Positions 18,719-61,710 of a stretch of 64,000 bases of DNA are shown here, in pieces. Below the pieces are notes generated by a model, which was not told the origin of the DNA, did no database searches, and was given only the letters and a program-made list of their open reading frames with translations. The translations under genes were made by a program, and so were the position numbers. Positions within the stretch are counted from its first letter, which is position 1. Every line of letters starts with the position of its first letter. Source of the stretch: Phorcus lineatus (Eukaryota; Mollusca; Gastropoda; Trochida; Trochidae); contig OV121088.1 of assembly GCA_921293015.1 (NCBI GenBank), forward strand, positions 1,240,001 through 1,304,000, written 5' to 3'.

Positions 18719-18820
18719 ATTGTTACGTCATATGATATCCACATCGGCTCTTGTGACGTCACAATGACAAGTCGATGAGTAATGGACAATGGCCAGCGAG
18801 GCGGATCAGTGCTATATAAA
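18719..18820 (+). promoter_or_regulatory. G1 core promoter with CRE-type elements
   Basis: ATTGTTACGTCA lies at 18719-18730, a full palindromic CRE (TGACGTCA) at 18754-18761, GGACAATGGCCAGCGAGG near 18784, and a TATA box (TATATAAA) at 18813-18820. Start of transcription is expected near 18840. The whole block aligns with the G2 promoter, and the 12-mer ATTGTTACGTCA is identical in the G3 promoter. Confidence 0.75.
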
Positions 18821-18840
18821 CCTCGACCCCCCAAACATTG

Positions 18841-18899
18841 ACCATCACTACCTCGTGGTCAGTCATCGCATCTACAAGCTTAGGCTCTCATTTCATCAT
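18841..18899 (+). other. G1 non-coding first exon
   Basis: Sequence after the TATA box up to CATCAT|GTAAGT, a consensus donor. It has no open start codon of its own. A close homologue is at the same place in G2. It begins with a small inverted repeat (GACCA ... TGGTC), also present in G2. The 5' edge is estimated from the TATA position. Confidence 0.65.
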
Positions 18900-19525
18900 G
18901 TAAGTAGCCTTTTTATGTACTCACTTTAGTTACTAGTCTAAATTACCTATTCTCTCTGATGCTTAAATGTAAGATTTAAGTCTCCGACTTCTTTGACAAT
19001 TTAAAAAAATATTTTCAGTGACCATTATTTTTTCTTCTTACTGGTGATAATTTAAGTATGAAGTATTAATATTGCATGTCAATATATGCTTATAGAATAA
19101 ATAGTACATACAGAAGGATCCGTCAAATTGTAAGAGTTTTTGTGATATGGTACTATTCAAAGTTCATATTACATTTAGTTCATATTAATTTATATTGAAT
19201 TGGATGATTGTTCTTTGATTATATCTTGAAGAACAATGTAAGGTGACAAGCTTTTAAAACATTCTTTCTCCTTCAAATACTTTGGTGATTGATGAAACGG
19301 AGTTTCTGAATGTTGTTTTAATTTTTATATTGACAGTACATTAAATTTTTCTGGAAAGAAATAATAGCTAATGATACGAAAATGATACGAAATTTGTCAC
19401 TTCTTAAAATGTTTATGTCACTTCTCGAGACTTATGAAAAAATTGTTTGTTGTTTAATTGCAATTGTATAAATGTTTTTTTTAAACTGTTTTTTTTTCAG
19501 ACAATAAAATCGAAAACAGAACAGA

Positions 19526-21102
19526 ATGCATCTAACAGCCTTCACGCTACTGTGCTTTTGCTTGGCATCACAGGCATTAGGTGAGCATATTATTTCTCTA
19601 AAATTTCCAAGATATTAGTGTTATTTTATCTATTAAGTGTTTATTCAATTGTTAAATGACTATAAGTAAAATAGAAAAAACAGGCAGATATTTATTCTTT
19701 AAAATCGACCTAAGATTTGTCATTGTTAAATATGTCATTTTTCTTACACTGATTTACTTTTTCAGGATTTTACACCCCAAGAGGCATGGGATATCGACGC
19801 ATATACAACCCATACAGCCGCTACAACAGAGTAAGAGGCCAGGTACGACAAGCCCCCAAACAAGTGAAACCAGTCAACCTTCCTGCAAAGCCTAAACAGG
19901 CTGTGGCCACTCCTCCCCAAACTCAACCACCAGCCCCAAAAAGGCCTCAAGTTGAACCAATCCACAAACCGGCTGCCTCTCTGCCAAAGGTACAAGGTCT
20001 GAACAAGCAAGTCCAGTCAGTCCACAACCCTTACGATCCTATCCATGTGCCATTCGATCCCGTCTACCAGCCATACGATCCGACTTATGACCACACTAAC
20101 CTGCCCTATGACCCAATCTACGACCAGACATACGATTACCTTCCCGTCGACCTCGGTTCCAAGGGTGTTGGTAACGGTAGGGTCATCTACGTCATCAAAG
20201 AAGACCACCCACTTCCAAGAGGTTCTCCTTCATTCAACAACGGGCCCCATTTGATGTCCACCTCCGCACAGAACTCACCCATTGAACAACAAATCCTCGA
20301 CATCGTAGGACAGTTCCAGCAACAACTCCCAGTCGATAATAGCCAAGCCCAATTCCAAGGACACCCCGTCGACCAGTCAATGGGAAGCAACTTTGCAGCT
20401 CAAAACCAAGCACCTGCAAGCCAAACTGCCTCCATGATGTCCCAGACCCAACCAAGACGAGTCCAAGCTCAAGCCTCCATGGCAGAAACACCTATTGGTG
20501 CCTCATCTGTTGAACCAGCCCGAGCTGATCCCGTCCAATCTCCTGCTGCTCCTGCTGCTCCTACAGTTTCTTCTTCTCCTGCATCTACTGTCCCTGCTGA
20601 CGCTCCTGTTGACCACTTCGACAGGATGATGAGACACCAGTTCATCTCAGAGATGGATCTTCCTCCACACATGTCGGCACAGATGATGAACAGTGGAATC
20701 TTCCATTCCCCATCTGGCTCCACTAACATGGACCCTTACTTCCAGATGCATTTGGCTGAAGCCTTGGACTTTCCCAACCACCCCTCTACACTCCCCGGGT
20801 TCGGACCAGCTGATGCCACCGGAATGAATGCAGCTACTGCCACTTCCGCCTCTACCAAACCTCTGGATGTTGCACCACCAGCTTCCGGTTCCGCCCCCGC
20901 CAGCACCGCTCAAAGTGGCATGCCATCCGATACCGCAGCTGCTACACCCACACCCACAGACGTTCCCGCCACCAATGGCCAGTCGTCCTTCGATGCTGCA
21001 ATGGACAGGGCTTTCGCTATGGGTATGGCTGAGGCCATGGACCTCCCCGGATTTATGCTACCCGGAAGTATGCAACCCGGAAGTAACATTGGAGTCTTCT
21101 AA
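19526..21102 (+). CDS. G1: secreted Pro/Gln/Ala-rich protein with MDLP-type repeats
   Basis: Coding exons are 19526-19580 and 19766-21102, with a phase-1 intron; 463 residues. The acceptor TTTTTTCAG precedes the exon at 19501. The signal peptide MHLTAFTLLCFCLASQALG is encoded almost wholly on the first coding exon. The mature part opens with an R-x-YNPYSRYNR block (about 25-34), a Lys/Pro/Gln linker, a tyrosine-rich YDP repeat region (about 105-148), the segment VIYVIKEDHPLPR (about 157-169), a long Gln/Ser/Ala/Pro linker, and three C-terminal motifs: FISEMDLPPHM (near 311-321), MHLAEALDFPNHP (near 347-359) and GMAEAMDLPGFM (near 438-449). There are no cysteines in the mature part as read, and no membrane segment after the signal. 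Near-identical to G2 and related to G3. Extracellular matrix-like role inferred; the exact function is unknown. Confidence 0.85.
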
Positions 21103-21230
21103 AAACTTCAGCCAAAGATCCTTCAGGAGCGCTTTATAACTCGGGGAAAAATGAGACTCTTGTGGATGTTTACATGATATATTGTTTTATCAGGCTGACA
21201 TTTAAATGTGTTGTTTTTGCATGGTTGATG

Positions 21231-21236
21231 AATAAA
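21231..21236 (+). terminator. G1 poly(A) signal
   Basis: AATAAA in GATGAATAAAATGCTTGAAA, 128 bases after the stop; conserved at the end of G2. Confidence 0.75.
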
Positions 21237-21239
21237 ATG

Positions 21240-22010: not shown

Positions 22011-22014
22011 CACT

Positions 22015-23696: not shown

Positions 23697-23701
23697 AAGT
23701 T

Positions 23702-23767
<66 letters not shown>

Positions 23768-23850
23768 AAACTTATACCACTACTGTTACTACAACTACTA
23801 CTACTACTACTAATAATAAAACTAATACCACTACTGTTACTACTACTACA

Positions 23851-23893
<43 letters not shown>

Positions 23894-23912
23894 AAACTAA
23901 TACCACTACTGT

Positions 23913-23960
<48 letters not shown>

Positions 23961-24206
23961 CACTACTGTTACTACTACTACTACTACTAAAACTAATACC
24001 ACTACTGTTACTACTACTACTACTACTAAAACTAATACAAATACTGTTACTACTACTACAACTACTACTACTACTACTACTAAAACTAATACCACTAATG
24101 TTACTACTACTACTAAAACTAATACCACTACTGTTACTACTACTACTACTAAAACTAATACCACTACTGTTACTACTACTACTACTAAAACTTATACCAC
24201 TACTGT

Positions 24207-24245
<39 letters not shown>

Positions 24246-24440
24246 CACTACTGTTACTACTACTACTACTACTAAAACTAATACCACTACTGTTACTACT
24301 ACTACTACTACTAAAACTAATACCACTAATGTTACTACTACTACTAAAACTAATACCACTACTGTTACTACTACTACTACTACTACTAAAGCTAATACCA
24401 CTAATGTTACTACTACTACTAAAACTAATACCACTACTGT

Positions 24441-24472
<32 letters not shown>

Positions 24473-24540
24473 AAACTAATACCACTACTGTTACTACTAC
24501 TACTACTACTACTAAAACTTATACCACTACTGTTACTACA

Positions 24541-24571
<31 letters not shown>

Positions 24572-24590
24572 AAACTAATGCCACTACTGT

Positions 24591-24625
<35 letters not shown>
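23697..24625. repeat. (CTA)n array with a higher-order unit
   Basis: Runs of ACT triplets are punctuated about every 40-70 bp by AAAACTAATACCACTACTGTT. The triplet period leaves frames open on both strands and makes Val/Leu-only open frames, which are artefacts. Confidence 0.9.
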
Positions 24626-27004: not shown

Positions 27005-29300
27005 CTAAGCACTGCTACTACCGCTAAGTACTAATACAACTTCTATGCATTTAAACAACTTCTGAGCACCACTATATTACAACCTCTAAGCACTACTACT
27101 ACTAAAGCAGTTCTTTCACTTCTAAGCTCTACTACTCCTCTTAATCACTACTTCAATACATCAAAGCAATAATACTACTCATAAGCTCTACTATTACTCA
27201 TAAGCTCTACTACTACTTCTGAGCTCTACTACTACACATAAGCACTACTAATACATCAAAGCACTAGTACTACTCACAAGCACTACTAATACGTCAAAGC
27301 AATACTACTACTCATAAGCACTACTATTACTCAGAAGCTCTACTACTACTTCTAAGCTCTACTACTACACATAAGCAATACTACTACTTCTAAGCTATAC
27401 TACTACACATAAGCACTACTACTACACATAAGCACTACTAATACATCAAAGCACTACTACTACTTCTAAGCTCTACTACTACACATAAGCACTACTGCTA
27501 CTTCTAAGCTCTACTACTACACATAAGCACTACTACTACTTCTAAGCTCTACTACTACACATAAGCACTACTACTACACATAAGCACTACTAATACATCA
27601 AAGCACTACTACTACTTCTAAGCTCTACTACTACACATAAGCACTACTGCTACTTCTAAGCTCTACTACTACACATAAGCACTACTACTACTTCTAAGCT
27701 ATACTACTACACATAAGCACTACTACTACACATAAGCACTACTAATACATCAAAGCACTACTACTACTTCTAAGCTCTACTACTACACATAAGCACTACT
27801 GCTACTTCTAAGCTCTACTACTACACATAAGCACTACTACTACTTCTAAGCTCTACTACTACTCATAAGCAATACTACTACTTCTAAGCTCTACTACTAC
27901 ACATAAGCACTACTGCTACTTCTAAGCTCTACTACTACACATAAGCTCTACTACTACTCATAAGCAATACTACTACTTCTAAGCTCTACTACTACACATA
28001 AGCACTACTGCTACTTCTAAGCTCTACTACTACACATAAGCACTACTACTACTTCTAAGCTCTACTACTACTCATAAGCAATACTACTACTTCTAAGCTC
28101 TACTACTACCCATAAGCACTACTACTACTTCTAAGCTCTACTACTACTTCTAAGCTCTACTACTACTCATAAGCACTACTACTACTTCTAAGCTCTACTA
28201 CTACACATAAGCACTACTACTACTTCTAAGCTCTACTACTACTCATAAGCACTACTACTACTTCTAAGCTCTATTATATCTAAGCTCTTCTTCTATTCAT
28301 AAGCTCTACAACTACCTCTAAACACTACTACTACTTCTAAGCTCTACTACTACACATAAGCACTACTACTACTTCTAAGCTCTACTACTACACATAAGCA
28401 CTACTACTACTTCTAAGCTCTACTACTACTCATAAGCACTACTACTACTTCTAAGCTCTACTACTACACATAAGCACTACTACTACACATAAGCACTACT
28501 ACTACTTCTAAGCTCTACTACTACACATAAGCACTACTACTACTTCTAAGCTCTACTACTACTACTCATAAGCACTACTACTACTTCTAAGCTCTACTAT
28601 ATCTAAGCTCTTCTTCTATTCATAAGCTCTACCACTACCTCTAAACACTACTACTACTTCTAAGCTCTACTACTACACATAAGCACTACTACTACATCTA
28701 TGCTGTTCTACTACTTTTAATCTCTATTGCTACTCATAAGCACTACTACAACTCATATGCACTTCTTGTATATCATAGCTCTACTACTATTTCTAAGCTC
28801 TACTGCTACTCATAAGCACTAATACTACATCTAAGCTCTGCTACTATATCTAGGCTCTACTACTAGACATAAGCACCGCTACTACTACACATAAGCACTG
28901 CTACTACTTGTAAGCACTACTATTTCCTCTAAGCACTACTGCTACATTTAACTCTACTACTATTTTATTTCTTAGCATTACAACTACTCATAAGCACTAT
29001 TACGACACTGAGCACTACTACTACATCTAAGCTTCACTACTACTCATAAGCACTACTACTACTACTTCTAAGCTATATTACTACATCTACGCTCGTCTTG
29101 TATTCATACGCTCTACAACTACCTCTAAACACTACTACTACATCTAAGCACTACAACTACCTCTAAACACTACTACTACATCTAAGCACTTCTACTACAT
29201 CTAAGCACTACTACTACATCTAACACTACTACTGCTTCCAATCTCTACTTCTACTACTTAAAAACACTAGTACTACTTTTTAGTTGTTTATCTTATCTAA
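27005..29300. repeat. ~38-bp higher-order minisatellite
   Basis: About 2.3 kb built from two related 19-mers, AAGCTCTACTACTACACAT and AAGCACTACTACTACTTCT, usually alternating to give a 38-bp period, with larger blocks also repeated. It is most regular at 27400-28700 and decays at both ends. No protein is encoded. Confidence 0.9.
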
Positions 29301-29811: not shown

Positions 29812-29912
29812 ATTGTTGCATCATATGACATGAACATGGGGTCTTACGACGTCACAGTGACAAGACGATGAGTAATGGACATTGTCCAGCGAGACTGACC
29901 AGTACTATATAA
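29812..29912 (+). promoter_or_regulatory. G2 core promoter
   Basis: Aligns with the G1 promoter. ATTGTTGCATCA (29812-29823) replaces the ATTGTTACGTCA of G1, CGACGTCA (29847-29854) replaces the full CRE, and the TATA box (TATATAA) is at 29906-29912. Two changes in the first element and one in the second may alter CREB/ATF binding relative to G1. Confidence 0.7.
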
Positions 29913-30784: not shown

Positions 30785-32373
30785 ATGCATTTTACAGCCT
30801 TCACTCTGTTGTGCTTCTGCCTAGCATCGCAGGCATTAGGTAAGCTCCGAAATTTCAAAAATAAAATAATATTCGATCCATTAATTGTTTATTTGATTTT
30901 GTTAAATGGCTATAAGTATTAACAATAGAATTAAAAACAAAGGCAGATTTTTATTCTTTAAAATCCACCTAAGATTTGTCCTTGTTTTTCTTACACTTTC
31001 TTACACATTAACATTTTTCAGGATTTTACCCCCGAAGAGGCATGGGATATCGACGCATATACAACCCATACAGCCGCTACAACAGAGTAAGAAGCCAGGT
31101 ACGCCAAGCCCCCAAACAAGTCAAACCAGTCAACCTTCCTGCAAAGCCTAAACAGGCTGTGGCCACTCCTCCCCAAACTCAACCACCAGCCCCAAAAAGG
31201 CCTCAAGTTGAACCAATCCACAAACCGGCTGCCTCTCTGCCAAAGGTACAAGGTCTGAACAAGCAAGTCCAGTCAGTCCACAACCCTTACGATCCTATCC
31301 ATGTGCCATTCGATCCCGTCTACCAGCCATACGATCAGACTTATGACCACACTAACCTGCCCTATGACCCAATCTACGACCAGACATACGATTACCTTCC
31401 CGTCGACCTCGGTTCCAAGGGTGTTGGTAACGGTAGGGTCATCTATGTCATCAAAGAAGACCACCCACTTCCAAGAGGTTCTCCTTCATTCAACAACGGG
31501 CCCCATTTGATGTCCACCTCCGCACAGAACTCACCCATTGAACAACAAATCCTCGACATCGTAGGACAGTTCCAGCAACAACTCCCAGTCGATAATAGCC
31601 AAGCCCAATTCCAAGGAAACCCCGTCGACCAGTCAATGGGAAGCAACTTTGCAGCTCAAAACCAAGCACCTGCAAGCCAAACTGCCTCCATGATGCCCCA
31701 GACCCAACCAAGACGAGTCCAAGCTCAAGCCTCCATGCCAGGAGCACCTATTGGTGCCTCATCTGTTGAACCAGCCCGAGCTGATCCCGCCCAATCTCCT
31801 GCTGCTCCTGCTGCTCCTGCTGCTCCTACAGTTTCTTCTTCTCCTGCATCTACTGTCCCTGCTGACGCTCCTGTTGACCACTTCGACAGGATGATGAGAC
31901 ACCAGTTCATCTCAGAGATGGATCTTCCCCCTCACATGTCGGCACAGATGATGAACAGTGGCATCTTCCATTCCCCATCTGGCTCCACTAACATGGACCC
32001 TTACTTCCAGATGCATTTGGCTGAAGCCTTGGACTTTCCCAACCACCCCTCTACACTCCCCGGGTTCGGACCAGCTGATGCCACCGGAATGAATGGAGCT
32101 CCTGCCACTTCCGCCTCTACCAAACCTCTGGATGCTGCAGCACCAGCTTCCGGAGCTGCCCCCGCCAGCACCGCTCAAAGTGCCTCTCCTGCCGAAACCG
32201 TAGCTGCATCAGCCACACCCACAGACGTTCCTGCCGCAGCCAATGGCCAGTCGTCCTTCGATGCTGCAATGGACAGGGCTTTCGCTATGGGTATGGCTGA
32301 GGCCATGGACCTCCCCGGATTTATGCTACCCGGAAGTAACACGCAACCTGGAAGTAACAATAGAGTGTTTTAA
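30785..32373 (+). CDS. G2: secreted protein, near-identical copy of G1
   Basis: Coding exons are 30785-30839 and 31022-32373, phase-1 intron, 468 residues. Signal peptide MHFTAFTLLCFCLASQALG. The mature protein follows G1 almost residue for residue: YNPYSRYNR block, YDP region (one P-to-Q change), VIYVIKEDHPLPR, then FISEMDLPPHM, MHLAEALDFPNHP and GMAEAMDLPGFM. It differs by one extra Ala-Ala-Pro unit in the linker and by scattered changes after about residue 365. The DNA of the large exon is nearly unchanged at silent sites over its first ~700 bp, while the first intron is not alignable by eye. The frame is intact, so it is probably functional unless the altered first-exon donor impairs it. 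Confidence 0.85.
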
Positions 32374-33849: not shown

Positions 33850-35440
33850 TATTTGTATTCAAATACATCTGCACAGGTGCGTGTTAATGATTGTATTACA
33901 GATCGATTTCAGGTAAATTCCGGGGTCCGCCAAGGTTGTGTACTTTCACTTTCATTGTTTTCTGTATATATAAATGACTTAGTTTCAGAAATTAATATTC
34001 TTAAGTGTGGGATCAATATTGACGACACTATGCTTAGCCTTTTGTTATATGCAATTGACATAGCTTTGGTTGTTCCTGATGAAACATCTTTACAGCAAAT
34101 GTTAAACTGTGTGTCCAGCTGGTGTTCACGGTGGCGTTTGATGATAAATGCTAAGAAAACAAAAGTTGTCCATTTTCGTACGCCTCGTACAATCAGGTCT
34201 AATTATGTTTTTGCTGTTGGCAATGATTATAGATTATAGTAGTGTATATAAATACCTTGGAATTTGGTTTCATGAACATTTAGATTTGAATTTTACTGTT
34301 AAAGAAATTGCTAAATCTGCTAGTCGTGCACTGGGTGTTATCATTTGTAAGTTTAAGGCTCTTGGTGGCCTAGACTTCTGTTTTTAATACATTGTATGAG
34401 AATTTAGTACAACCTATATTATCTTATGGGTCTGCTATTTGGGGCTATCGTCAGTTTAGTTGTATTAATGCAGTCCAAAATAGAGCTTGTAGATTTTTTT
34501 TAGGTGTAGGTTCCAAGACCCCTAATTTAGCAGTAAGAGGCGACATCAACCTTAACTAAACAGAGAATAGAAATTATTCGATTTTGGCGCAGATTTCAAG
34601 GTATTAGTATTGATCCTAATAGACTTATAAGTAGAATATTTAAGTGGTCATTTAGATTTAGAAAATCCTGGAATAATAATGCATTTTCTCTTCTGTCTTC
34701 ATTAAATTTTCCTATCCCGGATATATCAAATATTTCTAACATTGGCTTTAACATTTCTAAACAGTGGTTAATTTCTTTGGATTATTATGATTGGTTGAAA
34801 GATATTTGGAACGACAAGGGTCTTTTAAATGGTAAAAAGCTTCGTACATATCGTTTATTCAAAACTGATCTCAATACAGAAAGCTATGTTCTTTCTATTA
34901 AAAACAGGAAAATTCGTAGTGTTTACAGTAAATTTCGTTGTGGTGTTTTACCTTTGCATATTGAAGTTGGCAGATTTTCAAAACCAGTTACCCCTCTATC
35001 TGATAGAATTTGTAAATACTGTGACTTAAACACCATCGAAGACGAAACTCATTTTTTGATTAATTGTAAGTTTTATTCTGATTTAAGATATGATTTTTGG
35101 AAAACAATAAGTGATGCAGATCCCTCTTTTTGTAATCGTTCACCAGTTGAACAGCTGTGTTATTTAGTTAATAGCCAGTTTGTTACTCCTCTCTCTGCAC
35201 TAATTAATTCAATGTTTCAACGACGAAGAGATTTCATACCACCATACTATTTTACCCCATTTATTGTACTTTTTATATACCATATTTTAATCTTTTATTG
35301 TAACACAATGTCAACTTGTGTCTCGTAGGCCGTTCGGCCGGATGTTGTTTTTTTAAAACATTTCTTATATTATGCAATATGATGTAAAACAACATGTGAC
35401 ACATAAATAAAATACATTTCTTCTTCTTCTTCTTCTGTAT
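33850..35440 (+). mobile_element. Non-LTR retrotransposon with reverse transcriptase, decayed
   Basis: The frame at 33853-34239 carries reverse-transcriptase motifs: VNSGVRQGCVLS (motif 4), LFSVYINDLVSEI, and LLYAIDIALVVP, where the catalytic YADD has become YAID. The frame then shifts to YKYLGIWFHEHLDLNF, KSASRALGVI and, in a third frame, QNRACRFFLGVGSK. A tail frame at 34777-35328 has RICKYCDLNTIEDETHFLINC. The 3' end is marked by ATAAATAAAATACATTTC and a TTC repeat near 35418-35435. The lost catalytic Asp and the frame-shifts show it is dead. Upstream parts of ORF2 are missing. Confidence 0.85.
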
Positions 35441-36985: not shown

Positions 36986-38050
36986 CAGTTCAAATCAAAT
37001 CTTTTATTTCAATACTTTAAGGCAACAGGCCTATCAGTACAAAAGACACCACATCGGTGCAGACATAAGAATGTGAACTAAGGATATACAAAAAAGTGTT
37101 TTCATAATATGACAATATGTTTCTTCTTTTTATCAAAAGCATAAAAGAGATATTTTGCAATGTTTAAAGACATTAGCAAACTTTGACATGACAATGAAGT
37201 GTTGAATTTTGCTAATTTCGGAAAAAGATAGATATCAGGTAATACATGTTTGCTTCTTTATTCAGTGTAGGCTGGGCATACAAGCAAAAAATGATAGAAG
37301 CAATAGAATCTAAGTTACACATTTTACAATTTCTATGTACTTGGGAATTCTTTTTATATCTACCTCTCTAAATTTCTAAACTATGGGAAATCTTGATAAA
37401 CAAGATCTAAATTTACTTACAATAAGTATATACGTTTCGCAAGAAATTGTTATTTAAAAATTACAATAAAGCATGAATTTTTTTAGCTCTGGGAAAAATC
37501 ACTATGCCATACATGTAGAAAATTATCTGTCAATCGCTGCCAAAAAATATTGACAAGAACATTTCTATCTCCATAAGTATGTGAAAACCAAACGTTACCT
37601 AAACCTAATTCAAATATAACATTTCTTATTCTGGTGACCCAATTCACATGACCTTGTTCATTATACAAACACATCATATTGTAACACTTTCGTGGCAACC
37701 GATATTCAGGCATAACGCTGAGATTTGACCAGTATCTTATACATTTTAAAACAGCGGATAATTGAATAGGGTATCTACCACACTCGGCTCCATTAAAAAC
37801 TCCAGTATTTGATGTTGATAACTTGACATTCAGAAAACGTTTGCGAGCATATAAATGCCCCCAAATTTCGGCCCCATAAAGGAGAATGGGTTTTATCTTC
37901 ATATCAAATAATTTGAAGTACAGGCTAGGAGAGTGTGGTTTCAAAGAAGCCTGAAGACCACTGACGCTGGTCCCAAACAAGATGAGGTCATCAGCAAATA
38001 AAAGAAGGAATATATGTATAAAATCAGGATGTAATTGAACACCACACACT
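36985..38050 (-). mobile_element. Non-LTR retrotransposon fragment, minus strand
   Basis: The minus-strand frame at 37483-38049 opens with a reverse-transcriptase catalytic motif, LLLFADDLILFGTSVSGLQ, then jumps (an internal deletion) to KIKPILLYGAEIWG and a C-terminal segment. The 3' UTR, read on the minus strand, runs towards about 36985 with a poly(A)-like end (TTTTATTTC on the plus strand). Truncated, so not active. Confidence 0.75.
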
Positions 38051-38805: not shown

Positions 38806-38898
38806 ATTGTTACGTCACACTGAGCTTCATTGTGATGTCGAGCTGACAGTCGGTGACTGATTGTACAACTCCATTGTAACGAGGCAATGCTATATAAC
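38806..38898 (+). promoter_or_regulatory. G3 core promoter
   Basis: ATTGTTACGTCA (38806-38817) is identical to the element upstream of G1, although most of the surrounding sequence has diverged. The TATA box (TATATAAC) is at 38891-38898. Spacing from element to TATA is about 85 bases, against about 94 in G1 and G2. Confidence 0.75.
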
Positions 38899-39972: not shown

Positions 39973-42900
39973 ATGTATTTTGCTCCAACCATTCTTTTGT
40001 GCCTATTTGTTGCAAGCCAAGCATTTTATATGGGTAAGTTTCTTTTAATAAATCATGAAATGATGTTGCGCTCATATTCATCTCATGTTTGCCAACAGTG
40101 ATTTTACAAGTACCTAAAATGCTGAAACCACTCTCGTATCTTCTTATGTTGTTCTTATTCTTTACGCATAATCGAAAAATGTAAGGTTCAACTGACAGAA
40201 CTGCAAATATTTTTGTGTTAAATTGTGTTAGGCAATAACGTAAAGAAAATATGGCATATACAATAATTATTATATCTTTCCTAAGATTTGCAATGAAAAA
40301 TATGGTTTGCAACAGTAGAGCAATGGCTTGCTCATCCAACTCATTGTCCATTTCAGGACCATACATGAGGCATGAGTTCGGGTACCCACGGATGAGGTAC
40401 AACCCGTACAGCTTCTACAACCGGTTAACCAATCAGAGACGAGCTTCCCAGAACCAGGAACCAGCAAAACCAGCCAATCTTCCTACGAAGGAATCAGTGC
40501 CTGCTTCTTCTGTGAAGACCAATTCAAATCCTTCACAGCCTGTCAGAAATATCCAAGTGGCGACAAGAGCTAACCAAAAGCCAGGAAATCGCATGGAACA
40601 GAACAGAGTTCGTACCATAAAACAGCGAGGGAACAAAGATCAAGTTCGTACAAAAAATCAACAGGTTCGTATTCAAAATCCACAACTTCGTACCCGAAAT
40701 CAACAAATTCGCAACAAAAATCGTGAAGGTCGCACTCAAAATCAACAAGTCCGTTTCCAAAATGCAGAAGTTCGTTCCCTAAATCCACGGAGTCGTGTGC
40801 ATAACTCGGCCTTGGTGAGAAAACGACCTGCCGTCCATATAGAAAGAGCCAACCAACCTCTCCAAATAGTGATCCAAAACTCTGGAAATGCGAATCCAAA
40901 GATGATATATATAAGTGATATGTATGATTCTTCCCAAAATCTCCAGCGGTCTGCTGAAAAATCTACAACGACGGCGAACAAACAAGATATCCGTTTTGAG
41001 CCCCCTCCACAGCACCTCCAGCACACTAGTCGCATGAATGGTAAATCCTCGAACCAAATGAAAGCCGAGTCCTCGAACCAATGGAATGCCCAGTCCTCAA
41101 ACCCATTGAATGTCCAGTCCTCCAACCAATGGAATACCCAGTCCTCGAACCCATTGAATATCCAATCCTCGGACCGAGTGAATGCCCAGTCCTCGAACCA
41201 ATTGAATGCCCAGTCCTCGAATCAGTTGAATGCCCAGTCCTCGAATCAATTAAATGCCCAGTCCTCGAATCAGTTGAATGCCCAGTCCTCGAACCCATTG
41301 AATATCCAATCCTCGAACCAATTGAATGCCCAGTCCTCAAACCCATTGAATGTCCAATCCTCGAACCAATGGAATGCCCGGTCCTCGAACCCATTGAATG
41401 CCCAGTCCTCGAACCCATTGAATGCCCAGTCCTCGAACCCATTGAATGTCCAATCCTCGAACCGAGTGAATGCCCAGTCCTCGAACCAATTGAATGCCCA
41501 GTCCTCGATGCAACTGAATGCCCAGTCCTCGAACCCATGGAATGCCCAGTCCTCGACCAAATTGAATGCCCAGTCCACGAACCCATTTATTGCCCAGTCC
41601 TCGAACCCATTGATTGCCCAGTCCTCCATCCCATTTAATGCCCAGTCCTCGAACCAATTGAATGCCCAGTCCTCAAACCAACTAAATGTCCAGTACTCGA
41701 ATGCCAAGTCGTTGGACAACATGATTCCTCAGTCCTCGACCTCTATGAATAGCCAGTCATTGAACCATAAAATTCCTCAGTCAACGAACCATATAAGTGG
41801 TCAATCCGCGAACAGCATGAGTTCTCAGCCTTCTAACCATAAAAAGTCTCAAACGTCAAACCATATGATTGCTCAGCCCAAGAGTAATATGAATGCTCAA
41901 ACATCGGATCAACAAATGCTCCCTATCCAAATATATGCTGTGCCTCCATTCAAGCGGAATGATCCCAGAAACGAGCCCTACGGATCCAGGAGTGGGACTA
42001 TAAACGGAGGATATCAGGATACACGCGTAAATGTCGGAAGTGACTACTCTCACAAAAGCCAAGCGGGTGTTCCTGTCATGGTAGGAATAAACAGGGATTT
42101 TCTTATCTATAATCAAAACAGAAAAGAACACCTATATCGCCCTTATAGAAATAATCAGAATACCAAGCCTTCTCCAATATTTGCACATATGATTATCATC
42201 CAAGAGGATCATCCTGTTCCGAGAACTTCACTGGAAGTAGATTCAAGCAGTTCCACACTTTTTCTTGGCAGACAGTCCCCTGAGTCCACCAGGAACCAGC
42301 AGTTAGCAGCTCAACAAACACAGCCAGGTTTAAATAAACAAAACAGCATCGGGGAGATTCATGGTCAGCCTCAAGAACAGTTCTATGTAAACAGGAACAG
42401 ACAGTCTCAGGAACCCATGGTCCCGATGTCAAGTCAAACTCCGGTTGACTTTCAAGGATTTTCAAGTAAACACATTCCATCAATGAATCGAGACACATCT
42501 TCTGTGTATGCAGCTACAAACACCGATCGAATACAACAAAAACAACATAATCACCAAGCAGCGTTCGTGCAAGTTCCTGCCAAGCCAGCTCTGACACATG
42601 ATTGGTTGGTTGGAGCTAACTCGAATTCGTTAAAGCAAACCTCAGTTCGAGCGACATCGATTCCAGTCCAGACTGCAATAGTTCCAGTTCAAACCTCTTC
42701 AGCCTCAGTTTCATCTCAAATTCCTTTACTTGAAGCTCAAACCGCCTCGTTTCAAGCTCAAACCGCCTCTTTTCCAGCTCGAACCGCTTCAGTTTCAGCT
42801 CAAACTGCCTCAACTTCAACTCAAACCACCTCAGCACAAGCTCAAACCGCCTCTGCTCCAGCTCAAACCGCCTCTGTTCCAGCCCAAGCCTCTTTTGTTC

Positions 42901-43751
42901 CAGCTCAAACCGCCTCAAATTCAGCTGTAAGAGCATCAGTTCAGTATAAGACTAACCAAAGATCAGTTGGTCCCGGCTCATTTCAAACTACATCAACCTT
43001 TGCTCCGCTTCAGCCATCCTCAGTTTCAGCCCACACAGCCTCAATTCCAGTTCAAAGCGGGTCATTAAAGGTCCAAGTTTTGAGTTCTGGCTCAGGTGAA
43101 GGGACTATCTTCGAGCGAGGAAGTACAGTACAAAGAAATACTCCAGCTCTAACTGCCGCTCTTCAATATCAAGCAGCTGGTGGTACAGTACAATCCACTT
43201 CCACAGTAGATTCTCAGTCTTCCACGCTTCCAGTTCAAGATACCATACCTAATGTTGTTATAGGGAGTACCAATCAACAGCCTCCCCCACAAGTGTCAGC
43301 ATCAGTTTCAACGTCACAAACATCATCAACAGCATCGGCATCATCATCTGCAGTCAAAACCAGTCAACCCGCTGCCAAGGCTAATTCAGTCGTTGATCCC
43401 TTTACAAGGATGATGAGGCAACACTTTATCTCAGAGATGGATCTCCCGTCTCACATGACTCAACAGATGATGAACAGCGGTTTCTTCAAATCAAGCCCTG
43501 GATCCTTTTCAGCCGAAGGCATGGACCCTGTCCTTCGGATGCATATTGCCGAGGCCATGGACCTTCCTCATCCACCTGTCAGTCCGAAACAGGTTCGATC
43601 AAAACCGCCGGTAACCAAGGCATCCACAAAGACTCAGGAAGCTGTCCAAAAGCGAGTTCCTGCCAAAAAAGGCGGCCGTGCTGTTACCTCGTCGACGTCA
43701 ACTAAGGATGTGGCCCGAGCAATGGAATTCCCTTCATCGAGGGCCGTTTAA
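39973..43751 (+). CDS. G3: large secreted repeat protein with SSNQLNAQ and AQTAS repeats
   Basis: Coding exons are 39973-40033 and 40357-43751, phase-1 intron, 1,151 residues. The acceptor at 39945 is CTGTTGCAG. The signal peptide is MYFAPTILLCLFVASQAF. The mature start shares RYNPYSFYNR with G1. Then come 8-residue VRxQNxQ repeats (about 102-169), 8-residue SSN-x-(L/W)-NAQ repeats (about 249-470, degenerate to ~535) coded by a 24-bp minisatellite, MIIIQEDHPVPR (about 632-643), AQTAS(F/V/A)PAQ repeats (about 786-877), and the family C-terminus: FTRMMRQHFISEMDLPSHM, then MHIAEAMDLPHPP and a weak third copy, ARAMEFPSSR, at the very end. Much longer than G1 because of repeat growth in the linker. 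Extracellular; possibly a matrix or gel former (inference). The M at 40251 is in the intron and is not the start. Confidence 0.85.
41041..41700 (+). repeat. 24-bp coding minisatellite inside G3
   Basis: About 27 copies of a unit close to GCCCAGTCCTCGAACC plus eight more bases (24 bp), coding for SSNQLNAQ. Because the unit is a multiple of three and lacks stops in several registers, long frames are open on both strands across it. Confidence 0.9.
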
Positions 43752-44795: not shown

Positions 44796-44799
44796 TTAT

Positions 44800-45355
44800 C
44801 CCTTAATTAGGATATAGCATCACCTAATAAGGACTTAATCATTGCCTAATTAGGACATAACTATCATCTAATTAGGATAAACTGTCTACTAATTAGGAGA
44901 TATTAAGTCCTAATTAGGACATACTAACTCCTAATTAGGAGATAGTTGTCGCCTAATTAGGAGATAATTATCACCTTATTATCACCTAATTCCGCGAAAG
45001 TATCAACTAATTAGGAGATAGAATATCCAAATTAGATGATAGTATCTCCTAATTAGACGATACTATATCCTAATTAGGAAATAGCTATTATTACTTATCT
45101 ATCTCCTATTTATGTGTTACTGTCTGCAAATTAGGAGTTACTGTCTCCAAAATAGGTGATAACTAAATCCTAATTAAGACTTAATAATCTCCTAATTAGG
45201 CGTTACCATCTGTCAATTAGGAGTTACTATCTCCTAATTAGATGATAGTATCAACTAATTAGGAAATGGTTTCCCCAAATTGGTAAAAGTATCTCCTAAT
45301 TAGGCGATAATTAAGTCCTGATTAGGCGATAATTAAGTCCTAATTAGGAAATCCA
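44800..45355. repeat. ~21-bp TAATTAG-rich satellite
   Basis: Roughly 26 degenerate units of 20-23 bp, built on the palindrome CCTAATTAGG followed by spacers such as AGATAGTATCT. At least 15 units keep an intact TAATTA core. The array ends just before 45360. Confidence 0.85.
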
Positions 45356-47698: not shown

Positions 47699-47699
47699 A

Positions 47700-48448: not shown

Positions 48449-49697
48449 TTAGAGGGAGGCTTGAAGTGCGACGGCGTCAGCGGCGGCACCGGCGGGTCCA
48501 GACTGGAATGCAGCGTACGTGGGAAGGTCCAGGGCCTCGTACATGTGCATACGTTGAAGGGTCTTCAGATCCAGTCCTGCAACCTTGCCTGTCTGACCGC
48601 CCACGGTGGGTGCGTCGTAGGGGACAACGTGTTCCATCTCTGAGAGGATGTAGTTCCTGACCATGGCGTCCATCTGGTTAGTTGGCTCGGCTCTGGGCTC
48701 GGCTGCAGGGTTCTGTGTGCCTGAAGAGGTAGAGGCGGCAGACTTTGAAACGGCAGGGGCAACCGAAGCATGGGTCGGTTTAGCGGCAGTCTCAACAATG
48801 AGCTGAGTTTGAGTGTTGAACTGCTCAACAGGAAGTTGAGCGGATGCTTGGAAAGCACCTGCTGAAGCGGGTCCGGCACCTTGGGTGACTTCGACGAACT
48901 TTTGGTTACCAGTGGCAGACTGGTCCAAGGTGACGCGACGGACTTGTTGGTTGTTTATCATTTGACTCTGGACTCCTTGGGTGTTCATCATCTGAGGTAC
49001 AGCGCCAGTTTGAACTGCCTGTGTGTTCATCCTCTGAGCAGGGGACCCGGCTTGACGTCCATTTGGTGTTGGATGGTCCTCCTGGATGACAACGATTGTC
49101 TGACCGTTCCAGTTGGTGGATCCAGCGTTCTTGCCGTATGCAGGATGGATAATGTGTGAGTCGTATCCATTGTTGTATCCATCGTTGTACCCTCCATCGT
49201 ACACATACAGCTCGGGCTCTGGGTAAGGATGTGCGGGCATGTACGGCTTATGAGGCGGCATGGTCACCATTGGAGCCTGTGTGGTGGTTGTGGTGGTTGT
49301 GGTGGTTGTAGTTTCCATGGCTGGTCTAGGACGGACTTGTCTGTAGGGGCTTGGTCTTCTGTATGGGTAACGTGGTCCCCAGGGACCCAAATGTCTGTTG
49401 AACATTCCTCCTGGGAACATGCCGCCTGGAACAGAAGGAAGAAGAGGGGTAAGTCTTCAACGTAGGTTAAGTATTGATAAATAAGAGCAGGGAAATGAAA
49501 GTGTAAAGTTATGATTTGAAGAATTAGCGGAAAAAGCAAAATGAATGACTCCCTAACGTTTATTTACATTTTGCTGGCTTATTCCAATACTATCCTAAAG
49601 ACGTAATGAAGTAGGATTTGGTAAACTTACCGAACGGGAAAGCCTCAATGGCAACACAGAGACAAGCAAGAAGAGCCGAAACTTGAATAGCCTTCAT
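48449..49697 (-). CDS. G4: secreted Thr/Gln/Ala-rich family member, minus strand
   Basis: Coding exons are complement 49631-49697 and complement 48449-49425, phase-1 intron (donor GTAAGT, acceptor TTCCAG), 347 residues. The signal peptide MKAIQVSALLACLCVAIEA is on the first coding exon. The mature part has a Pro/Arg/Tyr-rich start (PRYPYRRPSPYRQVRPRP), an uninterrupted run of 11 threonines, a Tyr/Gly/Asp/Asn segment (YVYDGGYNDGYNNGYDSH), then QTIVVIQEDHPTPNG, matching the EDHP segment of G1-G3. A Gln/Ala/Ser linker with MNTQxVQ repeats follows. The C-terminus keeps MVRNYILSEMEHVVPY and RMHMYEALDLPTYAAF, counterparts of FISEMDLP and MHLAEALDFP. Same gene plan as its neighbours but inverted. 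Function unknown; secreted structural protein inferred. Confidence 0.85.
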
Positions 49698-50154: not shown

Positions 50155-50217
50155 CTTATATAGCAGCTGACCGTGTAGATTGAGTCATTCCCATTGTTCT
50201 TGGGTATTGTTACATCA
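50155..50217 (-). promoter_or_regulatory. G4 core promoter
   Basis: Minus-strand TATA box (TATATAAG) at 50155-50162. Upstream are an AP-1-type TGACTCA at 50181-50187 and, on the opposite strand relative to the gene, ATTGTTACATCA at 50206-50217, one base from the ATTGTTACGTCA of G1 and G3. Confidence 0.65.
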
Positions 50218-50289
50218 CAATTGAGACTTGTCCAATTCCTACCCGAGGGGGCTTGCAAAGGCAAGATTAATTGGAATGTCATTAACTGA

Positions 50290-55683: not shown

Positions 55684-55736
55684 GATTGTCACGTGACGTC
55701 ATGGTGTTCAGTATTCAGACGCGGTATGCATATAAG
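55684..55736 (+). promoter_or_regulatory. G5 core promoter with a palindromic CRE
   Basis: GATTGTCACGTGACGTCA at 55684-55701 joins an ATTGT half, an E-box CACGTG and a full CRE (TGACGTCA at 55694-55701). A TATA box (TATAAG) is at 55731-55736. The CRE-to-TATA distance is shorter than in G1. Confidence 0.65.
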
Positions 55737-56155: not shown

Positions 56156-56916
56156 ATGAACAGCATTATTCTCATCACGGCGGTCGTGCTGGCTTGCCTG
56201 AGTGGATCGGGCAGTGCTCAAGGTCAGGGCTCTTTCAGCGGAAATCCACACTTAACACTTGCATTTTAGTTGTGTCTCATTGAGATTATGAAGAGAAAAT
56301 TTAGTTCGCTAGGTTTTATAATCAAACGCAAATATGAATAATTCTGATGATCCTGCAATACGCTTGTCATTGTTTTACGAGTATTATCAATGGTGAAAAC
56401 TTCTGCAAATTACAGTCGGCATTTATGATTAATATACTTATATGTTAAAAAACTGTTGCAGGAGGTGGGCGTCCTAGGATTATCGTCATAAGGAGGCCTT
56501 CATCAAGTACTTCCGGTTCCAACACAGCCTCTGTACAAACCCCGACTTCCGCTTCCTTTTCGCCATCGACCACGACCACCAAAGCCGCATCTCCTTCTTC
56601 CGGTTCCTATGACGCCTCACAAGGTTACGACCACGGACGTATGTTACACAATCTGATGCTCGCTGAGCACCTGGACGTCCCCTACTCCCGAGACCCGACC
56701 CGACACTACCTCAGCAACAAGCTGGACATCCCCTACGTTCTGCTGGCCAACAGAGGCAACTCCGGCGGCTTCGACCACGTCAACTACCTCATCAGTCAGA
56801 AACTTGACATGCCCTATCTGCCTCTCCTGTCAAACGGCAAACGTGGTGGCGCTGATCCGCTTCGTACCGCTTACATCTTGGATTCTCTCGACGCACCGGT
56901 CATCTACAGAATTTGA
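56156..56916 (+). CDS. G5: small secreted protein with four LD-x-P repeats
   Basis: Coding exons are 56156-56222 and 56462-56916, phase-1 intron, 173 residues. The signal peptide begins MNSIILITAVVLACLSGSG. The mature part starts with GGGRPRIIVIRRPSS, where RIIVIRRP sits in the place of VIYVIKEDHP in G1, then a Ser/Thr linker. The C-terminal half holds four spaced motifs: LMLAEHLDVPYS (LDVP near 93), YLSNKLDIPYV (near 110), YLISQKLDMPYLP (near 137) and YILDSLDAPVIYRI at the end (near 165). Each has an aliphatic/aromatic lead of about six residues before LD-x-P, which relates it to the MDLP motifs of G1-G4. The last ~90 codons and the 3' UTR are almost identical in DNA to G6. Confidence 0.85.
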
Positions 56917-56963
56917 GCTTGTATTTATTTTCATTGCTGAGTTTGTGGGTTCATCTATTTATG

Positions 56964-56969
56964 AATAAA
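56964..56969 (+). terminator. G5 poly(A) signal
   Basis: AATAAA in TTATGAATAAATCATCC, 47 bases after the stop; identical in G6. Confidence 0.75.
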
Positions 56970-57099
56970 TCATCCCAAATCATCAAATGTTGTCTCTGTC
57001 CTTCTTTGTTAATTGATAGATATGCTTTAGTCTGAAATGATGACAATATTGCATTAAGAATCATCAGTTAAACAGGAATCCTTTTATTTACTATTCATT

Positions 57100-59480
57100 A
57101 TCTTTCCACAGAGTATCATCCGGTACAATAGGAAGCTAATGGTTGTTCAGTACAAATCCGTTTAAAGAATAGCAGTATATACAGTCTACTCGTATTACCA
57201 GGGTTCACTCCAAAGCGACACAGTGCCGAGCTACTCTGTAATGTTTAGTCTTCGCCTTCACCTTCGATAGGTTGCAAAGCATTCATAATTTCCAACCCAG
57301 CTAGAATTGAAAATACGAGAAGTATAGTAACTCGTCATCTCTGTATCCTGATAAACGTGTATGGCAGTCTCCCCCAAAACTCTTACATCCCATTTCCCCT
57401 TCACCTTATCAAAAGAAATTTATGACGCACTTCTATTCCCTATAACCAGTCACCCCTGGCAACGGTCCTGATTGAGCACAGGGACAGTTGATTGTTTGAG
57501 AAAATGTTTGATAAGCATAACCTACATAGTAAACTGGTATGATAAAATAAATATCCTTTGGAGAAACCATACGATATGTAGTTTTATATATATTAAATAT
57601 TACATACTTTACATGGTCGTTTGCAGAATCAGTTTAATCCGATACTAGTATTTCGTCAATAGTATTGACTCATCAGGGAAACGATATCTATATATCAGTT
57701 CACTGGGAAGACGTATTTATGATTTCATAAGATTAAAACAGTATTTAATTTCTAACACCTAACATAAAATACAAAATAAATTAGAAAATAAACAATGGCA
57801 GAAGGGTCAGCCTATATAGATGCCTCTCTAAAAGCTTAGAACGATTAAGTTGATAGATATAGAAGAAAATTTGAAATTCATGTTCAGTGTTAACCGAGAT
57901 TATTAGCCAGTCTAAACATTACACTTGGTACCGAACTAAAACTGGTGTGTGTTATATATGAAATGGTAATTAAACATACTTTACTATAGATTCGCTCTGT
58001 GAGAAAGAGTCGTAAATGCTAGTAGTAGTTTGCAAGCTTAAAGCCTTTCGCTAAAATTATTCTTTGAATCTGAAACCCTCACATAAATTCATGTGAAAGA
58101 AATAATTGAAAGGATCCTCCAGAATATTTCATTTTTCACACTTGATTCTCCTATGGTTTTAGTTGCAAAATATTATGTCCTTCGGAAAAAGTTCACAACA
58201 GAAAAGTTTAAGCATCACACCTTTGATATAAATTGTTTGGCATTGAAAGGTTACCATAGGGCGGTTTGATGAACAACTGTTTCTTTCTCAAAGAGATCTT
58301 CAAACGATTAAATTATCATTTGAGAATTTTAAGAGAAAGTAAAATTAAAGGAAAGATTGTTTTAAATTACAATTACTCCTTTCAATTGAAAGGGAATGGT
58401 GTGCGATATCATCGTGTCACTAACTGTTTGTCTTTACGTCTGCGATCTAATGATAGTGAACTGTAATTGAGAGGGATTATAGGTATTTACTTGGAAACAC
58501 TTACAGTTTAAGAAGCTTCATTTTTAAACGTTTCCAAGTAACCTCTGTTACAAGGGCTTCCAATTCTCGATTTTTTCTAAATACCTAAGTTTGATCCAAT
58601 CCTTATTTCAAAATCAATTATCATGTTACTCTTCCAACTGTCTTCCGTTTGCATGAAATGTGTGCGCCTCGCATCGGTGAATGAAGTAGCCAAACTTTAT
58701 TAGAGGGGGTGCAAATTTTCTGGCGTCAAGAAAACTTGGAAATCGGCAGTACCTTTGTTTTGTAAAAAATAATTATGAACATCATTTTAATACATAACGT
58801 TTGTAATTTTCATCACGCTTGCCAAACGACTCTCTCACAGGCCAACATATTCTTCAAAAATAGATTTTGAGTAATGAGATTTAAGTTGAAATGCATAATT
58901 TATTTGCTTCAGTCAAAATTGGATATAGAATGAAACACAGAATTAAACAAGCAGTTGCGACTTTTGGCTGCATGGACACTAGTGAAAGAATTATCAGTCA
59001 TATCAGTTTTGTTGAAGTTTAAATAGACCGGAGAACTCACTTTATATTGTGTAAAGGTTCTTTATACTGACACATAAATGGGAATAATAGTTATGTTTAT
59101 CGAATTCTGGGATATCTTCCGTCATATGTTAATTAGTGAAACGTTACTCGGAAATATATCTAAAGTAGCATAAATAATATTTCGTTGATAGTGTTTAAAC
59201 GGTTAATAACTATTACTGATATCGGGGACAAGGTTTCTGAAGTGCAATGTACACAATGCTGTTTAAGGGTGTCAACTCTCAATTGTCAAAGCTTTAATTG
59301 TTATGAATGGATGTATGGAAGTATTTTCGTATTTTAGTTCTGAATATGATGTCATGAAAATATGCTTATGAATCATTGAGCCATGACATTATATGTTTTT
59401 CCTGGTTCGTGTTTTATCATTATCATATTATGAATTGATCCACTTAACGTAACGTAAGAGCTCATTAAATCATCAAATTA
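57100..59480. other. Spacer between G5 and the second direct repeat
   Basis: AT-rich, no gene seen. The first part (57035-57095) still resembles sequence after G6 (61507-61565), so the duplicated unit extends past the poly(A) site. Confidence 0.5.
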
Positions 59481-59482
59481 AA

Positions 59483-59917
59483 TACATTAAATCCGCATGA
59501 ACCACGATATCGGAAATATTAAGATTTTACTCATAACCAGAAAAGCGGAAACGGCAGCCGCTGTGGTCAATCTAATAACAATGCTAATACAGTGTTATGA
59601 AACCGGTTAATTTACAACATTGTTTTCATAAAACATATTCCATGATTTGTTCTCAGTTCAGAGTTTAGGTATGTTCAACAGCTGCACACAGTAATAGTTC
59701 AGCCGTGTCCAAGTGTCAATAATTTATCCGTATTTTGCACAGCTAACCATAGATTTACAGATGTCTAAGCCGACAGCGGCTGTCTTAACGTTTTCATTGT
59801 TGGTTGCAAGTAAATTGTAAAGAATGTTTAGTATTTCATTGCACCGATAGAAGTTTAAGTGAATGCATAAGTCCTCGCAAACCTTAAAATAGCCAATTTT
59901 AACCGTAAAAGCATGCA
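59483..59917 (+). repeat. ~430-bp direct repeat, copy 2, with a signal-peptide-like exon
   Basis: Homologue of 53186-53618. The frame ATG at 59761 reads MSKPTAAVLTFSLLVA and reaches CAA|GTAAAT, again a GT in phase 1, after TTTTGCACAG. Both copies keep the frame, the acceptor-like site and a phase-1 donor. This copy lies directly upstream of G6, which lacks an obvious promoter of its own. Confidence 0.55.
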
Positions 59918-59919
59918 CC

Positions 59920-60504
59920 AGTGCCTTCTTTAAGTAATAACCAATATACAATGTTTCCTTCTTAATGTTCAAATAATGTCGAAAAATTTTGATTTCATCA
60001 CCATTAGTATATTTTCGTGTTTTTAATAAAAATCGAGAAAAGGTAATATAAATGTTAAGAGATTAAAATTCTACATCCCATTTGCTTGTGTGCTTTTTTG
60101 TGATGCACATGTTTGTCGTTGTGTCTAACGTTGATAAGTTTCCAAAGTTACGTTTGAGTCATTGGCGCGTGCCCCTGACCGGTTTTCGATCACAAATCAC
60201 AACTCTTTGTTGTTTATTCTCACCATACTGAATTAAGCATTAAAATGTTAATTTTCAGATATTACCATTAGTTCTCGACATGGTAACACCATTTTTAAAT
60301 TTTGAAATATTTGACCCCCAATTACATACTCTGTGCCCCTTTGATAACTCTGATATTGTTGAAAAATGGTTAAATCATAACTTAACTACCACCCAATCAG
60401 TTCTTTAAGACACATTTACTTTGATTTGTTTTATATTGCATCTTCTCAGAAACAGATAAAAATCGATTGTTCGTTTGATTCACCTTTAAACAACATAATT
60501 ACAG
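59920..60504. other. Region upstream of the G6 signal-peptide exon
   Basis: No TATA box or CRE-type element like those of G1-G5 was found here. The exon before G6, if any, may lie in or upstream of the 59483-59917 repeat. Confidence 0.4.
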
Positions 60505-60528
60505 GTGATACAGACATTACCCGCAGCA

Positions 60529-61410
60529 ATGAACCGTGTCCTCCTCTTCACCACAGCAGTACTCGCCTCTCTGGGTGCAACTTGCTATGCTCAAGGTCAG
60601 TGAAATATTACTGATGTCTTCTATAACCGATACTGTAAATGTAACGTCATTATTGTGAATGATAACTTTAATGAACAAAAATCAATCAATCCTATTTCTA
60701 AGTGAGACGTTGCCTGCTTGGCGTTCCTCCCCATCCTCGTTTATTTGGCTTTTTAGACTCCATTTTCGAGTATTCTTTTCTAACTTTAAATTTTGATTAC
60801 AAATGGATTACAACTAAAAGTCTATATCATGGTCTAAAGGTGGTGAATCATTGTGATATTTTTAAAATTATATTTTAGAACTCAAGTATTTACTTAGAAT
60901 GATTCCAAATACAAGAAACATATTTTCTATCATGTGGTAGGAAATGGACATCGGAGAATAATCGTCATCAGGAGGCCTTCAACATCAAGTTCCTCAAGTT
61001 CCGTCTCAGCCGCTGTACAAACCCCATCTTTCCCTTCATCCGCACCATCGGCCTTGACCAGAAACGCCGCAGCACCCTCTTCCAAAGTCACTTCCGGTTC
61101 CTACGACGCCTCACAAGGTTACGACCACGGACGTATGTATCACAATCTGATGCTCGCTGAGCACCTGGACGTCCCCTACTCCCGAGACCCGACCCGACAC
61201 TACCTCAGCAACAAGCTGGACATCCCCTACGTTCTGCTGGCCAACAGAGGCAACTCCGGCGGCTTCGACCACGTCAACTACCTCATCAGTCAGAAACTTG
61301 ACATGCCCTATCTGCCTCTCCTGTCAAACGGCAAACGTGGTGGCGCTGATCCGCTTCGTACCGCTTACATCTTGGATTCTCTCGACGCACCGGTCATCTA
61401 CAGAATTTGA
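60529..61410 (+). CDS. G6: small secreted protein, paralogue of G5
   Basis: Coding exons are 60529-60595 and 60941-61410, phase-1 intron, 178 residues. The signal peptide MNRVLFTTAVLASLGATCYA has the same length as that of G5 but a different sequence. The mature start NGHRRIIVIRRPSTSS is followed by a longer serine run, then a Ser/Ala linker and the same LDVP, LDIP, LDMP and LDAP repeats as G5. From GSYDASQGYDHGRM to the poly(A) site the DNA matches G5 almost base for base (a two-base swap, TTA/TAT, after ATG), whereas introns, signal peptide and linker have diverged. Probably expressed, but no clear promoter was found. Function unknown. Confidence 0.8.
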
Positions 61411-61457
61411 GCTTGTATTTATTTTCATTGCTGAGTTTGTGGGTTCATCTATTTATG

Positions 61458-61463
61458 AATAAA
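61458..61463 (+). terminator. G6 poly(A) signal
   Basis: AATAAA, same context as G5. Confidence 0.75.
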
Positions 61464-61568
61464 TCATCCAAGTCATCTCTGTTGTCTCTGACGTTCTTTT
61501 TTTTCATTTGAAATGCTGACCATGTTGAATTACTAGTCACTAGTTAAACAGGAGTCCTTTTATTTGCA

Positions 61569-61710
61569 ACGACCATGTCAACTACCTCATCAGTCAGAAA
61601 CTGCTTACATCTTTGATTCTCTCGATCATCTACAGGTTTTGAGTTTGTATTGAATTTGGTTTTTAAAGAGTGTTGGTTTTAATGAGTAAATCATTTCATG
61701 TCATCAAATG
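61569..61710 (+). pseudogene. Decayed third copy of the G5/G6 large exon
   Basis: CGACCATGTCAACTACCTCA followed by TCAGTCAGAAAC matches the VNYLISQKL part of G5/G6. It then jumps, with about 65 bases missing, to TGCTTACATCTTTGATTCTC and TCATCTACAG, the family C-terminus, followed by a diverged 3' UTR with a damaged poly(A) signal (GAGTAAATCAT). No signal exon and no intact frame. A remnant of a third tandem unit. Confidence 0.8.

Follow-up and report, generated by a model that had tools for sequence, protein, structure and literature searches.

Among the closest described systems are abalone shell proteins, namely Has-CL10Contig2, whose mantle expression is in the nacre zone (PMC2989941, PMC4944945), and the Gln- and Met-rich ML5A7, ML6A10, and ML8B1, which are presented without homology (PMC2989941), together with Q/N/S-repeat shell proteins of the limpet (PMC3374290), each as stated in the available excerpts of these papers. 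Here, we describe a window of 64,000 nucleotides from Phorcus lineatus (the whole stretch analysed; assembly GCA_921293015.1, contig OV121088.1, positions 1,240,001 to 1,304,000 of the forward strand), in which six genes (G1 to G6, between positions 18,719 and 61,710) encode putative secreted proteins that carry repeats of a motif, LDxP, toward their C-termini. This species is a thick topshell with a nacreous layer, and we tentatively favour a structural role for the six proteins in the shell. New beyond an initial annotation of the same window are the candidate conversion signature, the shared promoter elements, the chitin synthase and silk-like neighbours, and the absence of cysteine.

Six secreted-protein genes and their LDxP repeats

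All six genes gave intact models, running from ATG to stop without an internal stop and with GT/AG phase-1 introns, and the predicted proteins of 463 (G1), 468 (G2), 1,151 (G3), 347 (G4), 173 (G5), and 178 (G6) residues reproduced the size range of 173 to 1,151 residues reported initially. The gene plan described at that time, a hydrophobic signal exon followed by a phase-1 intron and a single large coding exon, was likewise present in every model. A signal peptide is expected of a molluscan shell matrix protein, and the signal exon was hydrophobic in six of six genes as judged by eye; the first AATAAA lay 48-160 bases past the stop in each. Not a single cysteine was found in the 2,664 mature residues of G1-G6 (signal lengths set by hand), nor in the total of 3,022 reached by adding the 358 residues of a silk-like neighbour. 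Low-complexity or repetitive sequence, which is common but not obligatory in shell matrix proteins, was found as a 24-base array in G3 and as biased composition, and G1, G2, and G4 are near neutral. The six proteins themselves are not silk-like or fibroin-like, as Ala plus Gly was not dominant in any of them, unlike in the silk-like neighbour.

LDxP ends a unit of about 15 residues, e.g., DPYFQMHLAEALDFP in G1, DPVLRMHIAEAMDLP in G3, and DPLRTAYILDSLDAP in G5. When all six reading frames were scanned with the pattern [LMAI]x(0-2)x[LM]D[LFVIMA]P, 17 of the 18 matches in the window fell inside the six genes (3, 3, 2, 1, 4, and 4 in G1 to G6), with the remaining one adjoining a stop. A further 200 kb of flank held five matches, each with a stop in the surrounding stretch. 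Counts of [LM]D[LFVIMA]P were also compared with 20,000 shuffles per protein (first 20 residues exempt), of which 3 (G1), 2 (G2), 10 (G3), 579 (G4), and none (G5 and G6) reached the observed count. C-terminal repeats in the six proteins, as first claimed, are upheld; for G4, however, the listed YILSEMEHVVP is a degenerate copy beside a single canonical motif, and the G4 repeat count alone is unconvincing. A third copy in G3 (ARAMEFP) is weak, and G5 and G6 each hold four tight repeats within 103 residues. Because G1/G2 (94% identity over the large exon) and G5/G6 (99% over the repeat domain) are duplicates, these comparisons draw on four independent sequences only.

Divergence between adjacent copies and between gene sets

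Identity between G1 and G2 was 79.1% in the promoter, 51.3% in intron 1, 83.6% (46/55) in the signal exon, and 76.0% in intron 2, then 98.4%, 98.5%, and 98.6% over three successive parts of the large exon, and beyond these 88.6% in the linker, 95.1% in the last repeat, and 80.1% in the 3' untranslated region (3'UTR). For G5 and G6, the signal exon (64.2%), intron (50.2%), linker (75.5%), and downstream sequence (76.5%) stood beside a repeat domain of 99.0% (306/309) and a 3'UTR of 100% (58/58) identity. Synonymous divergence between G1 and G2 fell from 1.05 in the signal exon to 0.02 and 0.01 across the following 130 and 150 codons and stood at 0.10-0.13 thereafter, and between G5 and G6 it was 1.2, 0.47, and 0.013 along the gene, the signal-exon values coming from 20 and 23 codons. 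Near-identical modules next to old introns and signal exons would be a signature of gene conversion or recent exchange, for which these pairs are candidates, since selection at the protein level would not erase synonymous and 3'UTR differences.

Searches of the whole genome scored the best candidates only, so that the counts of relatives are lower bounds. The G1 block matched G1, G2, and G3 (three of three matches) and missed G4, and distant members could therefore be overlooked; the only match of G4 besides G4 was a single place at E 0.4. The G5 domain matched G5, G6, and one place on another contig (C16) at 85% identity, which proved to be an intact gene with a signal exon (C16:9346175) 82.6% identical to that of G6, a phase-1 intron, and a large exon. 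This copy has retained all four LDxP motifs, its domain shows a ratio of nonsynonymous to synonymous divergence (dN/dS) of 0.30 against G5 and 0.24 against G6, and four of the six motif matches in the surrounding 30 kb lie inside it. Transposon-like reading frames were seen by eye about 8 kb from this gene.

Taken by their sequences, G1-G4 are paralogues. A 62-residue stretch that includes two repeats is 61% identical between G1 and G3 (E 2e-16, whole genome), over which G4 and G1 are 28% identical, and a short, weak EDHPxP stretch ahead of the linker is common to all four. G5, G6, and the C16 copy form a second set, joined to G1-G4 mainly by the LDxP tail. We used six repeats from G1, G3, and G4 as a profile with 400 shuffles, in one of many tests, uncorrected, and the best 17-column match in each of G5 and G6 was reached by 0/400 shuffles; with the LDxP columns removed, this profile found no G5/G6 match better than p 0.12. 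The converse G5 profile without LDxP reached the degenerate copy in G4 (0/400 at 10 columns, 2/400 at 8 columns) and did not reach G1, G2, or G3 (best p 0.08). A hidden Markov model (HMM) built from eight rows of G1/G3/G4 repeats, among which the third G3 row and the first G4 row were off register, found G1-G4 and neither G5 nor G6, and profile-profile comparison of the two sets gave a probability of 0.6% (E 0.099).

LDxP carries nearly all of the similarity between the sets, the degenerate G4 copy reached by the G5 profile being the one result that points to more. A considerable possibility, held at somewhat less than even confidence, is that they are two unrelated families whose tail was gained independently or arose by chance, which is compatible with any function. 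The HMM and profile-profile results point that way, as does a likeness made almost wholly of LDxP, whereas the matching exon plan and phase, the adjacency of the genes, LDxP counts exceeding shuffles in both sets, and the reach of the G5 profile without LDxP to the G4 copy argue for kinship, together with a weak I/V-rich stretch before the linker in both (RVIYVIKEDHP, TIVVIQEDHP; RIIVIRRPS). That all six are united by one motif is only partly shown, and the single family first proposed is not supported in that form, as the sequence comparisons describe two sets linked chiefly through a tail of four residues.

No Pfam match above cut-off was found for G1, G3, G4, or G5 (the near-duplicates G2 and G6 were outside the scan), and six heptads from these proteins were found in no paper, in agreement with the earlier reading of a lineage-specific matrix family and with the view that the repeat is no described domain. 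NCBIfam, a prokaryote library of little weight here, gave no match for the same four proteins, and the family is not named in the available excerpts of the literature on shell, radula, and silk proteins. Candidates that were rejected are the insect glue family New_glue for a low-complexity Ser/Thr-rich stretch of G5 (E 5.3e-5, 23.3 bits, below the cut-off of 31), one solved-structure row for the G5 domain (E 0.013), and, with the small G1-G4 profile, four rows of seryl-tRNA synthetase (E 0.0008-0.0017), the latter two judged to be chance.

Promoters and neighbouring genes

About 30 kb upstream of G1, one exon scores 53 bits as chitin synthase (PF03142; cut-off 27), and the exon just before it matches glycosyltransferase 2 slightly above cut-off (Table 1). 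At the other side, 4.6 kb beyond G6 and outside the window end, lies a seventh secreted-protein gene, silk-like in type, which repeats the plan of G1-G6 in its signal exon, its phase-1 intron, and its large exon; the product is 34% Ala, 16% Gly, and 16% Ser and has no Pfam match. The fraction of four-fold codons ending in G is 0.01-0.08 in G1, G2, G4, and the silk-like gene, against 0.14-0.17 in G3, G5, and G6; three reading frames taken for comparison gave 0.14-0.22. Some of these genes may therefore be strongly expressed.

The two strands of the window hold five copies of CTATATAA, and four of these form the TATA boxes of G1, G2, G3, and G4, behind which an untranslated first exon would lie in G1 and G4. 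Perfect copies of a palindrome, TTGTGAYGTMACAA, stand 62 (G1) and 58 (G4) bases ahead of TATA, and a two-mismatch copy in G3 stands 84 bases ahead. In 264 kb (both strands), there are three copies of the element GAGTAATGG, each 29-35 bases ahead of TATA, in G1, G2, and the silk-like gene; as G1 and G2 are duplicates, this is one independent coincidence. CRE-like sites 15-90 bases ahead of TATA were found at 16 places in 264 kb, three of them at G1, G3, and G4, so that this combination alone is not rare. Since all of these elements were picked out by inspection, they are suggestive of common control but no proof of it.

Table 1. Positions of the gene parts, promoters, and neighbouring genes (window numbering; negative values precede the window and values above 64,000 follow it)
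Feature	Position	Strand	Remarks
Chitin synthase exon	-12192 to -10234		L017:7808-9766
Exon before chitin synthase exon	L017:7100-7324		
G1 promoter	18751..18819	+	palindrome TTGTGACGTCACAA (18751), GAGTAATGG (18777), TATA box CTATATAA (18812)
G1 untranslated first exon (putative)	ends ~18896	+	GTAAGT donor
G1 signal exon	19526..19580	+	
G1 large exon	19766..21102	+	three LDxP repeats, ~20620-20679, 20731-20790, 21004-21051
G2 promoter	29870..29912	+	GAGTAATGG (29870), TATA box CTATATAA (29905)
G2 signal exon	30785..30839	+	
G2 large exon	31022..32373	+	near-copy of G1, 98.4-98.6% in first three parts
G3 promoter	38807..38897	+	two-mismatch palindrome copy (38807), TATA box CTATATAA (38890)
G3 signal exon	39973..40033	+	
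G3 large exon	40357..43751	+	two LDxP repeats close to end
G3 24-base tandem array	41046-41701	+	27.3 copies; encodes SSNQLNAQ-like octads
G4 large exon	48449..49425	-	one canonical and one degenerate repeat
G4 signal exon	49631..49697	-	
G4 promoter	50156..50220	-	palindrome TTGTGATGTAACAA, TATA box CTATATAA (50163)
G5 promoter (candidate)	55694..55735	+	TGACGTCA, then CATATAA ~35 bases on
G5 signal exon	56156..56222	+	
G5 large exon	56462..56916	+	repeat domain 56605-56913, four LDxP repeats
G6 signal exon	60529..60595	+	
G6 large exon	60941..61410	+	repeat domain 61099-61407, four LDxP repeats
Decayed fragment of another G5/G6-type tail	61560..61680	+	by eye, unscored
Silk-like gene	66037-67128	-	L006:2037-3128
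Intact G5/G6-type gene	C16:9345231-9346175		all four LDxP motifs kept

Between G3 and G4, an array of 21-22-base units is built round the palindrome CTAATTAG (44797-45348), and 14 of the 18 CTAATTAG copies in 264 kb sit at 44846-45340; its TAATTA core is of homeodomain type, and the array may be satellite or regulatory. Long simple-repeat and 19-base tandem arrays lie between G1 and G2 (23702-24621, 27085-29233), and frames resembling retrotransposon fragments were noted by eye at 34537-35325 (+) and 37483-38049 (-). Two adjacent long reading frames (3111-5051, 5582-6805) with RERERxRKR-like basic stretches, for which no Pfam match above cut-off was found, are possibly related nuclear proteins.

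Functional readings and described matrix proteins

Our favoured reading, held tentatively and at slightly less than even confidence, is that the cluster consists of lineage-specific secreted structural-matrix genes whose products assemble in the shell organic framework, probably that of nacre, with LDxP modules as contacts. Related promoters would drive the products beside the silk-like and chitin synthase genes, and the exported, cysteine-free chains, with linkers that are mostly of low complexity and presumably disordered, would meet one another through their C-terminal modules, while the Q/N/S/P/A linkers would set the spacing and may vary in length. The chains would then assemble with chitin and the silk-like protein, and gene conversion would keep the modules of adjacent copies alike. 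Two things make shell the likeliest setting, namely the silk-like neighbour and the abalone Gln-/Met-rich and limpet Q/N/S-repeat shell proteins, as the available excerpts describe them. Several points weigh against this reading. The chitin synthase call comes from two exons, and chitin is also present in the radula, where the limpet expresses chitin synthases (PMC9263180, in excerpt). The promoter elements were chosen by inspection, CTATATAA and TGACGTCA count 16 and 30 over 264 kb, and no palindrome was found within 3 kb at two mismatches in G2, G5, or G6. An amphipathic helix, tried as the form of the repeats, was rejected, as hydrophobic moments did not exceed those of shuffles in 11 of 11 units.

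The initial annotation had left a matrix, an adhesive, and an egg-coat family side by side, and the neighbours, namely the chitin synthase and the silk-like gene, favour structural matrix. They do not by themselves single out the shell: the same assembly logic could serve another chitinous part (radula, jaw, or operculum), which is unlikely but of which the radula is the strongest rival to shell, given the chitin synthase next door and the radular expression just cited; the silk-like neighbour, by contrast, resembles a nacre protein in composition, judging from the excerpts. Pedal mucus or adhesive proteins would also be secreted and Q/S/P-rich, and the sub-threshold glue match of G5 would suit them, yet that match spans the signal and low-complexity residues 4-76, outside the repeats, and with no cysteine and a chitin synthase as neighbour we consider this origin quite improbable. 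Concerted repeats also occur in the egg-coat proteins of related snails, and products of the reproductive tract (egg coat, egg jelly, or capsule) could thus account for genes that are secreted, repetitive, duplicated, and homogenised. ZP-type egg-coat proteins, however, are defined by a ZP module with conserved cysteines, and neither a Pfam match to ZP or another egg-coat domain (G1, G3, G4, and G5) nor any cysteine was found. The lack of cysteine and the constraint on the G5-type repeat domain (dN/dS 0.24-0.30) speak against a disulphide-rich, fast-evolving egg coat, and with structural-matrix genes on either side we give an egg-coat role little credence.

A bolder proposal extends the favoured structural-matrix reading, and we regard it as a speculative and rather unlikely one: the LDxP module may be a domain, so far undescribed, by which the matrices of snail hard parts assemble, common to chains that differ widely in length and maintained as interchangeable through conversion, in a matrix locus where related promoters join chitin synthase, silk-like protein, and the protein partners of these two. 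How rapidly changing matrix proteins stay mutually compatible is an open question in biomineralisation, and, if the favoured reading is right, this locus would be a concrete case, with conversion-matched C-terminal modules and drifting linkers beside chitin and silk-like genes. The locus also supplies two defined motif families that can be sought in snail shell and radula proteomes.

Compared with the described proteins as they are printed in the available excerpts, the counterpart of Has-CL10Contig2 would be the silk-like neighbour and not G1-G6, both combining GGSGG repeats with blocks rich in Ala that also contain Ser and Arg, although Has-CL10Contig2 has GN repeats and none were spotted in the neighbour. 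Haliotis asinina ML5A7, ML6A10, and ML8B1 are, like G1-G6, secreted, biased in composition, of low complexity, and without a recognised domain; by description, they differ in being shorter and basic (theoretical isoelectric point 10-12), whereas G1, G2, and G4 are near neutral (PMC2989941). Finally, Lottia gigantea Lotgi1|172698, with a unit of 14 residues whose sequence is other than that of G3, is by its printed description a protein of 1,184 residues, rich in Q/N/S and with many short tandem repeats, and in these respects it resembles the linker of G3 (PMC3374290).

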